A DNA stretch of 48,159 nt, taken from positions 1-48,159 of the forward strand of contig CABXST010000004.1 of NCBI GenBank assembly GCA_902514885.1, in the 5' to 3' direction. Source of the DNA: an uncultured Alphaproteobacteria bacterium. Lineage in GTDB: Bacteria; Pseudomonadota; Alphaproteobacteria; HIMB59. The translations under genes were made by a program, and so were the position numbers. Under the pieces are notes generated by a model. The model was given only the letters and a program-made list of their open reading frames with translations, was not told the DNA's origin and ran no database searches. Positions 41,316-43,265 of the stretch are shown here, piece by piece. Each line of letters begins with the position of its first letter. Within the stretch, counting starts at the first letter, position 1.

Positions 41316-42962
41316 ATGGTCAATCCCTATAATCAGGATTTGGATGCAAATTCTGCTAACTATCAACCTCTCACCCCATTATCATTTCTAGAAAGAGCAG
41401 CAGATGTATTTCCAGAGTTTACTGCAATTGTTCATGGTAATCTTCGAAGATCCTATGCTGAATTTTATCTTCGCTCTAAAAAATTAGCCTCAGCTTTATC
41501 TCAGCAGGGCATGACAAGAGGAAGTACAATATCAACTTTGTTGTTGAATACACCTCCAATGCTCGAAGCTCATTATGGTATCCCAATGTGTGGAGGAGTA
41601 ATCCATGCCATCAACACCCGTCTTGATTCCGCGACTATTGCCTTTCAACTTGAGCACGCTGACTCACAGTTTTTATTATATGATCGAGAGTTATCAGCAA
41701 CTGTAAAAGAAGTTTTGAGTCAATGCAAAGTCAAACCCCAATTAATCGAATTTATAGATAAAGAACATTCCTATGAATCTCTCGATAATTTTGATCTAGA
41801 TGTAATAGATTATGAGGAATTTTTGGATCGAGGAGATAGTAATTATAAATGGCTTATGCCAGAAAATGAGTGGGATGCAATTTCTGTTGGATACACTTCT
41901 GGTACTACCGGTGATCCCAAAGGGGTAGTCTCTCATCATCGTGGGGCTTATTTATTAGCTCAAGGTAATGCAATGGTTGCCTCAATGCCTAAACATTCAG
42001 TGTATCTTTGGACACTCCCGATGTTTCATTGTAACGGCTGGTGTTTTCCATGGACTATGTCAGCAATTATTGGAACTCATGTTTGTCTGCGCCAAGTTAG
42101 GGCAGAACCAATATGGAATAGCATAAAAAACCATAAAGTTAGCCATTTATGTGGGGCACCCATCGTAATGTCAGTTATTTTATCACAAGACCAAAAAAAC
42201 AGATTTAATATAACTCATGAGGTTCAATTTTTTACTGCAGCTGCACCACCACCAGAAAATATTCTTAGAGAAATGCAAGAGTCAGGATTTTTAGTAACCC
42301 ATCTTTATGGTTTGACTGAAACATATGGACCAGCTGTCATCAATGAGTGGCATCAAGAATGGAATTCATTAGACATGAATGCACAAGCATCACTTAAAGC
42401 AAGGCAGGGTGTACGATACCTACCTCTGGAACATCTCAAAGTTCTTGACCCAGGTACTATGAAGCAGGTTCCTGCCGATGGCAAAACAATTGGTGAAGTT
42501 ATGCTTCAAGGAAATATTGTGATGAAGGGTTATTTAAAAAATAAATCTGCAAATCAAAAAGCTTTTGAAGGTGGTTGGTTTCACTCAGGAGATTTAGCAG
42601 TGATGCACCCTGACGGTTATCTCCAGCTAAAAGATCGATCAAAAGATATTATAATATCTGGTGGAGAAAACATTTCATCGATTGAAATTGAGGAAGTATT
42701 CTTAAAAAATGATTGTGTCAGTGCTGCAGCAGTCATTGCTATTCCTGATCAAAAGTGGGGCGAAGTCCCCTGTGCTTTTATTGAACTAAAGAAAGATCAA
42801 AATTGGAATGAGATACATGCAAAACAGTGGTGCGAAGAAAACTTGGCATCATTTAAAGTTCCTAAATATTATTTTTTTGAAAACATTCCTCGAACTTCTA
42901 CTGGCAAAATTCAAAAATTTGTATTGAGAGAAAAAGGAAAGAGTCTTACTGGAACAAATTGA
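41316..42962 (+). CDS. Acyl-CoA synthetase, AMP-forming
   Basis: An ANL-superfamily ligase, 548 residues. The AMP-binding motif is VGYTSGTTGDPKGVVSHHRG, with LYGLTETYGPAV and a C-terminal domain with GWFHSGDLAV, KDRSKDIIISGGENISSIEIE and the catalytic Lys in RTSTGKIQKF. It resembles medium-chain acyl-CoA ligases related to plant AAE1-type proteins. Substrate is unknown; with the OsmC and crotonase genes it may serve an acid degradation step. Confidence 0.93.
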   Translation: MVNPYNQDLDANSANYQPLTPLSFLERAADVFPEFTAIVHGNLRRSYAEFYLRSKKLASALSQQGMTRGSTISTLLLNTPPMLEAHYGIPMCGGVIHAINTRLDSATIAFQLEHADSQFLLYDRELSATVKEVLSQCKVKPQLIEFIDKEHSYESLDNFDLDVIDYEEFLDRGDSNYKWLMPENEWDAISVGYTSGTTGDPKGVVSHHRGAYLLAQGNAMVASMPKHSVYLWTLPMFHCNGWCFPWTMSAIIGTHVCLRQVRAEPIWNSIKNHKVSHLCGAPIVMSVILSQDQKNRFNITHEVQFFTAAAPPPENILREMQESGFLVTHLYGLTETYGPAVINEWHQEWNSLDMNAQASLKARQGVRYLPLEHLKVLDPGTMKQVPADGKTIGEVMLQGNIVMKGYLKNKSANQKAFEGGWFHSGDLAVMHPDGYLQLKDRSKDIIISGGENISSIEIEEVFLKNDCVSAAAVIAIPDQKWGEVPCAFIELKKDQNWNEIHAKQWCEENLASFKVPKYYFFENIPRTSTGKIQKFVLREKGKSLTGTN

Positions 42963-42980
42963 GGGTGGCTCTCACCACCC
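42963..42980. other. Hairpin between convergent genes
   Basis: The stem GGGTGG (42963-42968) and CCACCC (42975-42980) with a 6-base loop follows the acyl-CoA synthetase stop directly and lies just past the small ORF on the other strand. Flanking A and T runs are on the wrong side for a canonical intrinsic terminator, so the role as a bidirectional terminator is only suggested. Confidence 0.4.
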
Positions 42981-42990
42981 CCAAAAAAAC

Positions 42991-43074
42991 TTATAATTTT
43001 GAACCCACGATCCCGGCTATTAACCAAATAATCATTATTATAAAAGGGTAGTGTCCTGTGAACATTTCAGCCAT
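42991..43074 (-). CDS. Possible 27-residue membrane peptide
   Basis: An ORF with the start ATG at 43074 preceded by a perfect AGGAGG ribosome binding site 6 bases upstream. The product begins MAEMFTGHYPF and continues with a hydrophobic helix (IIMIIWLIAGIVGS) and a short C-terminus ending KL. This single-span layout is typical of small membrane proteins. I recognise no family. Two perfect palindromes lie just upstream (43089-43100 and 43122-43140). The strong ribosome binding site in an otherwise empty 300-base gap argues for translation. Confidence 0.55.
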   Translation of the reverse strand: MAEMFTGHYPFIIMIIWLIAGIVGSKL

Positions 43075-43088
43075 TTAAAACCTCCTAG

Positions 43089-43100
43089 ATTCCATGGAAT
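43089..43100. repeat. Perfect 12-base palindrome upstream of the small membrane ORF
   Basis: ATTCCATGGAAT reads the same on both strands. It lies 15 bases before the 27-codon ORF start, next to the AGGAGG site. It could be chance in AT-rich DNA. Confidence 0.4.
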
Positions 43101-43121
43101 AAGATTAAAGTTTTATAAGTA

Positions 43122-43140
43122 ATATGCAATAATTGCATAT
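43122..43140. promoter_or_regulatory. Perfect 19-base palindrome, possible operator
   Basis: Arms ATATGCAAT (43122-43130) and ATTGCATAT (43132-43140) are perfect inverted repeats around one base, in the intergenic region between the 27-codon ORF and pncC. The site lies about 48 bases upstream of the ORF start, close to its expected promoter. It could bind a dimeric regulator. Confidence 0.5.
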
Positions 43141-43265
43141 ATTATTTTTAAAATTGTTGATTTTTCTATTGATAATCAGAGTAAAAATCATTTTTTTATG
43201 CAATTTTTAGATACCTATAAGTACCATTGTTATTTTGTAGTCCTTATAATAAGTATATCTAGTTG

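Follow-up and report, generated by a model that had tools for sequence, protein, structure and literature searches.

Between cinA and an acyl-CoA synthetase gene of an uncultured HIMB59 bacterium lies an open reading frame of 27 codons, preceded by AGGAGG and by two palindromes. It raises the question of whether so short a frame is a gene at all and, if it is, what controls it and what its product does. The window, that is, the whole stretch of 48,159 nucleotides analysed here, forms contig C4 of an incomplete genome of 836 kb (58% completeness). The relatives with which it was compared are single-cell and metagenome assemblies, the single-cell genomes being incomplete.

A short reading frame under selection

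The frame lies on the minus strand, divergent from cinA and convergent with the acyl-CoA synthetase gene. Its immediate features are the following:

42991-43074, minus strand: ORF of a 27-amino-acid single-pass membrane peptide, MAEMFTGHYPFIIMIIWLIAGIVGSKL, identified by genus conservation, eight invariant residues and pN/pS
43081-43086, minus strand: Shine-Dalgarno sequence AGGAGG, 6 nt before the ATG, with the same sequence or a variant in homologues
42959-42984, minus strand: terminator-like hairpin 3' of the stop codon and flanked by the convergent genes, from folding and a terminator scan

A preliminary description of this DNA had proposed a 27-codon ORF with AGGAGG six bases before its ATG, likely translated and encoding a single hydrophobic helix. 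The ORF is indeed there, running from 43074 to 42991 on the minus strand, and Kyte-Doolittle analysis finds one hydrophobic segment, with a 17-residue mean of 1.8-2.4 among seven homologues. AGGAGG occurs 13 times on the two strands of the window, and only at the peptide ORF does an ATG follow 4-10 bases downstream. Among the 1228 ORFs of 150 amino acids or more in the complete relative G029, only 34 have AGGAGG within 20 nt upstream, by crude start calls.

The homologues are 24-27 residues long with one predicted membrane pass, and those read have GGAGG, AGGAGG or a close variant as ribosome site (GAGGG in G012, GGAG in G002). Eight residues are invariant (G7, Y9, P10, F11, M14, W17, G21 and G24), and the diverged copies share the pattern G-[HY]-Y-P-F-x-[IV]-M-x-[IV]-W-[LF]-x-x-G-x-x-G-[SA]-[KR]. 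The peptide is under purifying selection, with pN/pS of 0.08-0.34 among the pairs listed, and the variable columns number 17, 6 and 22 of 24 at the first, second and third codon positions, second positions being the least variable. Because pN/pS is low and the ribosome site is conserved, translation of the ORF is strongly supported, as had been anticipated. Loss of the peptide or of its ribosome site in relatives had been named as the observation that would speak against the gene; both are kept. At the level of sequence comparison, the ORF is thus shown to be a genuine stand-alone small gene. In most homologues GAATC stands just 5' of the ribosome site (43088-43104 in the window); GANTC is the methylation site of CcrM.

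The hairpin 3' of the stop codon, also noted beforehand as GC-rich, is found both by folding (11 bp, -18.9 kcal/mol, z -4.9) and by the terminator scan, which calls it at 42984-42959 with 0.1 expected. A hairpin follows the peptide gene in all seven relatives folded, with a varying stem sequence. Situated between two convergent genes and reaching as far as the acyl-CoA synthetase stop codon, it can serve both.

A short stand-alone transcription unit with a stable terminal hairpin would also suit a regulatory RNA or a leader, whose short ORF would be a by-product or would serve only to control the transcript. We consider this very unlikely: it is the amino acids that are under selection, no gene in the same direction lies downstream, and no Rfam family matches the locus.

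Distribution of the peptide

Of 150 relatives searched, 39 genomes belonging to a single genus have the peptide. By profile search these are 39 of the 52 genomes of the HIMB59 genus, and 9 of the 10 well-assembled ones. Most of the 13 apparent absences are assembly gaps, because in ten of these genomes the adjacent cinA is missing too, and in two more a contig end cuts through cinA. The remaining one, G037, is the sole genome of the genus with an intact cinA locus and no peptide, and the palindrome is missing there as well. In G012 and G023 the peptide gene stands in other surroundings, with its ribosome site and palindrome kept.

The peptide was not found in the sister family, or in about 380 other alphaproteobacterial genomes. 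That the carriers form the HIMB59 genus, and that the sister family is AEGEAN-169, is how we read record titles and the literature (PMC10308909). Weak matches in the sister family and the class (L078-L085, L206, L208) lay out of frame or within genes, or lacked a start, and were dismissed as chance. One match came from a contig filed as an uncultured Flavobacteriaceae MAG (L071, CAJWGK010000063.1); it carries HIMB59 genes in HIMB59 order and, because of this synteny, is apparently mis-binned.

No match to the peptide was found in Pfam or NCBIfam. PHROGs gave only a chance-level hit (E 0.08, one member), and a PDB match to a copper ATPase (E 2.7) was discarded as chance. In size and hydrophobicity the peptide does resemble a type I toxin or another selfish small hydrophobic peptide. 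Yet it is present in one copy per genome, at a locus mostly stable across the genus, is strongly constrained and was not found in viral contigs, so that such an origin seems most improbable.

A putative operator upstream of the gene

Three further elements lie upstream of the ribosome site:

43089-43100, no strand: palindrome ATTCCATGGAAT beside the ribosome site, clade-specific
43122-43140, no strand: operator-like palindrome ATATGCAATAATTGCATAT (ATATGCA-N5-TGCATAT), conserved upstream of the gene and common to glutamine synthetase/amt regions
43194-43216, no strand: possible second, weak operator copy TTTTATGCAATTTTTAGATACCT, at 7.8 bits the second best in the window

Both perfect palindromes that the preliminary description had placed upstream of the ORF are thus located. 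It had further suggested a stress peptide under regulation, the palindromes serving as operators, and here the two part company. ATATGCAATAATTGCATAT is a perfect 19-mer with no other match in the window at fewer than three mismatches, its centre lies 57 nt 5' of the ATG, and ATATGCA-N5-TGCATAT stands upstream of every peptide homologue read with at most one or two changes. That it is a putative regulatory element of the peptide gene is strongly supported, and its recurrence at glutamine synthetase and amt genes (see below) fits an operator. ATTCCATGGAAT, in contrast, occurs at one place in the window's genome and otherwise in its close clade only, which rules it out as a general operator; a close relative (L003) has the doubly changed ATTTCATGAAAT instead, palindrome retained. 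The putative second operator copy is stronger in G008 and G038 (ATATCCACAAAATGCATAT). Another recurrent sequence, ATTTGCAAACTTTGCATAT, was set aside: in G031 it falls within a permease gene and is probably conserved coding sequence.

In the window, as in most relatives, the palindrome has cinA on one side and the peptide gene on the other, and could in principle belong to the divergent cinA, the peptide being merely nearby. However, G012 and G023 keep it 5' of the peptide gene next to other neighbours, and in G037 an intact cinA has neither peptide nor palindrome adjoining, which leaves ownership by cinA with hardly any probability. Upstream of cinA itself (43220-43265), strongly conserved TATACTTATTATA and GAAATAACAATGG (minus-strand reading) occupy the same place in most relatives and are missing from the relocated peptide loci; this stretch is probably the cinA promoter or leader.

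The palindrome at nitrogen genes

A wider search for the 19-base palindrome had been proposed, and a genus-wide pattern search turned up a second recurrent site, about 30 nt 5' of a type III glutamine synthetase (TIGR03105) and beside a divergent ammonium-transporter gene. The window's own genome has it (palindrome at G000:C8:10582, amt at C8:10780), and the region with its palindrome was read in 11 genomes. At the synthetase of eight others (G002, G012, G014, G023, G025, G030, G037 and G044) the palindrome was not found, which makes the peptide the more constant target of the two.

A first scoring matrix, which contained the synthetase/amt and peptide sites, gave more than 16 bits at only two sites of the complete genome G029, with 25.6 in the intergenic region of synthetase and amt and 20.8 at the peptide; the maxima in two null genomes were 15.5 and 17.5. 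Because this matrix contained the tested sites, a second was built exclusively from 17 intergenic sites of the sister family. It again ranked synthetase/amt first (22.9) and the peptide second (19.4) in G029, the third site reaching 13.8, and in the window it gave 29.2 at the peptide palindrome versus 7.8 for the runner-up. The maximum over ten null genomes was 20.6, so that the G029 peptide site is not significant by score alone; the case for it is carried by its intergenic position, by orthology and by the 29.2 of the window copy. The third-best G029 site (1024302) lies 44 nt 5' of a gene for a TAXI-type solute-binding protein, a possible weak member of the regulon.

Across the order, the motif with at most one mismatch is present in 146 of 162 genomes, and a reversed-pattern control came out near zero. 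In the sister family, 20 places were hand-picked among the matches listed. Most are intergenic, and they belong mainly to amt, to circularly permuted ATP-grasp genes, to acyltransferase genes and to a pair encoding a glycosyltransferase and a 60-aa protein; the sites precede Ammonium_transp and CP_ATPgrasp genes. Genes of the CP_ATPgrasp kind occur together with Anbu, whose induction has been described in Pseudomonas putida under nitrogen limitation (PMC5666114). Because the palindrome is common to the glutamine synthetase III/amt region and to amt of the sister family, the peptide is probably co-regulated with nitrogen acquisition, as a member of a small nitrogen regulon switched on with the genes of ammonium uptake and assimilation.

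Two of the sister-family targets deserve separate mention. The roughly 60-aa protein (MIKNILNFF..., unannotated, no Pfam match) and the glycosyltransferase have the palindrome either between their genes or 5' of them (L214 2927-3106 and 3311-4417; also L210, L215, L222, L224 and L227), so that this is a second small protein at the same putative operator. The acyltransferase gene lies about 80 nt from the palindrome (L212 3084-3929; also L209, L216 and L217), which suggests that lipid remodelling could be under the same control in that family.

Candidate regulators

In other Alphaproteobacteria, the NtrC/NtrX regulons have amt and glutamine synthetase as targets. The target genes are alike here, but a pattern search of the crude G029 gene calls detected neither a GESGTGKE-type sigma-54 activator nor an rpoN box; it did detect one PII protein. 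The sites differ as well: in the NtrC site TGCAC-N7-GTGCA the two GC pairs stand 11 bases apart, versus 7 in the HIMB59 palindrome. TetR and CRP proteins were rejected as candidates, since nothing in G029 exceeded the cut-off: TetR_N had no match and HTH_Crp_2 a sub-threshold one, belonging to a GntR-like protein. These searches make a sigma-54-type NtrC/NtrX, TetR or CRP protein an unlikely regulator of the palindrome.

One possible candidate is an IclR-type regulator, whose gene stands at the end of the synthetase cluster. Besides this gene the cluster (L116, L186; G029 1.199-1.212 Mb) holds glxBCD/mgs-like genes and another gene resembling glutamine synthetase, and it resembles methylamine-utilisation clusters (compare PMC7948447), of which it may be one. 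Because of this resemblance, the transported substrate may be methylated amines.

Possible function of the peptide

The explanation that we favour, and hold to be probable, is a stand-alone small gene under an operator common to nitrogen genes, whose peptide would pack against a larger membrane protein, most likely Amt. The peptide would probably lie in the inner membrane with its N-terminus out and C-terminus in, because most members have an acidic residue near the N-terminus and K/R near the C-terminus. Its larger partner would be made under the same conditions, and contact may be made through the conserved YPF..M..W face and the small-residue patch G21..G24-[SA]. An ammonium/methylammonium transporter is the first candidate because the peptide appears to be regulated together with ammonium uptake, and the peptide might stabilise or modulate it in the manner of AcrZ, MgtS and MgtU.

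AcrZ, MgtS and MgtU/MgtR are short inner-membrane proteins that modulate transporters, several of them produced when stress calls for the partner transporter (PMC10710835). The HIMB59 peptide would likewise be a short inner-membrane protein, of 27 aa versus 49 in AcrZ and 31 in MgtS, and has no sequence match to a described family. A functional likeness, implying no homology, is offered by sP36 of Methanosarcina mazei, which is induced under nitrogen limitation and binds AmtB1 and GlnK1 (PMC10714827); sP36, however, has 61 aa, no transmembrane helix and a mostly archaeal distribution.

The preliminary description had also suggested a small subunit of a membrane complex. Instead of modulating Amt, the peptide could be such a structural subunit in a different complex of the inner membrane (like CydX or CcoQ, or in a non-Amt transporter), in which case the palindrome might respond to a wider signal of growth or nutrients. 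Small oxidase subunits of the CydX/CcoQ type are in a similar size class and have a single transmembrane helix, and a subunit would be in keeping with the invariance of Y-P-F, W and G and with the conservation of the gene in single copy. The HIMB59 peptide, however, is not linked to oxidase genes, no membrane-complex gene adjoins it, and Pfam/NCBIfam profiles of known small-subunit families (CydX, CcoQ, KdpF, AcrZ and others) gave no match, with PDB and PHROGs at chance level. As for the signal, it could exceed nitrogen because several sister-family targets, the acyltransferase and glycosyltransferase genes among them, are lipid or sugar genes; against this, the two strongest operator-like sites of G029 are precisely the peptide gene and glutamine synthetase/amt. 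We regard this alternative as possible though doubtful.

Within the favoured explanation, the proposal that the peptide acts on ammonium transport is itself tentative. Still more speculative is its full form, in which the peptide is a membrane micro-subunit or modulator dedicated to ammonium/methylammonium transport, under an undescribed nitrogen regulator (ATATGCA-N5-TGCATAT) in the HIMB59 order, which we would call rather unlikely as a whole. G037 lacks the peptide and also differs in the amt next to its synthetase, which is another gene with 48% identity; this coincidence is one event and only suggestive.

HIMB59 are globally abundant, streamlined marine bacteria. The present analysis gives this clade one more strongly conserved protein, of a length below the reach of the usual gene finders, together with a putative operator and what may be a small nitrogen-control regulon in marine bacteria where NtrC-type regulators were not detected.
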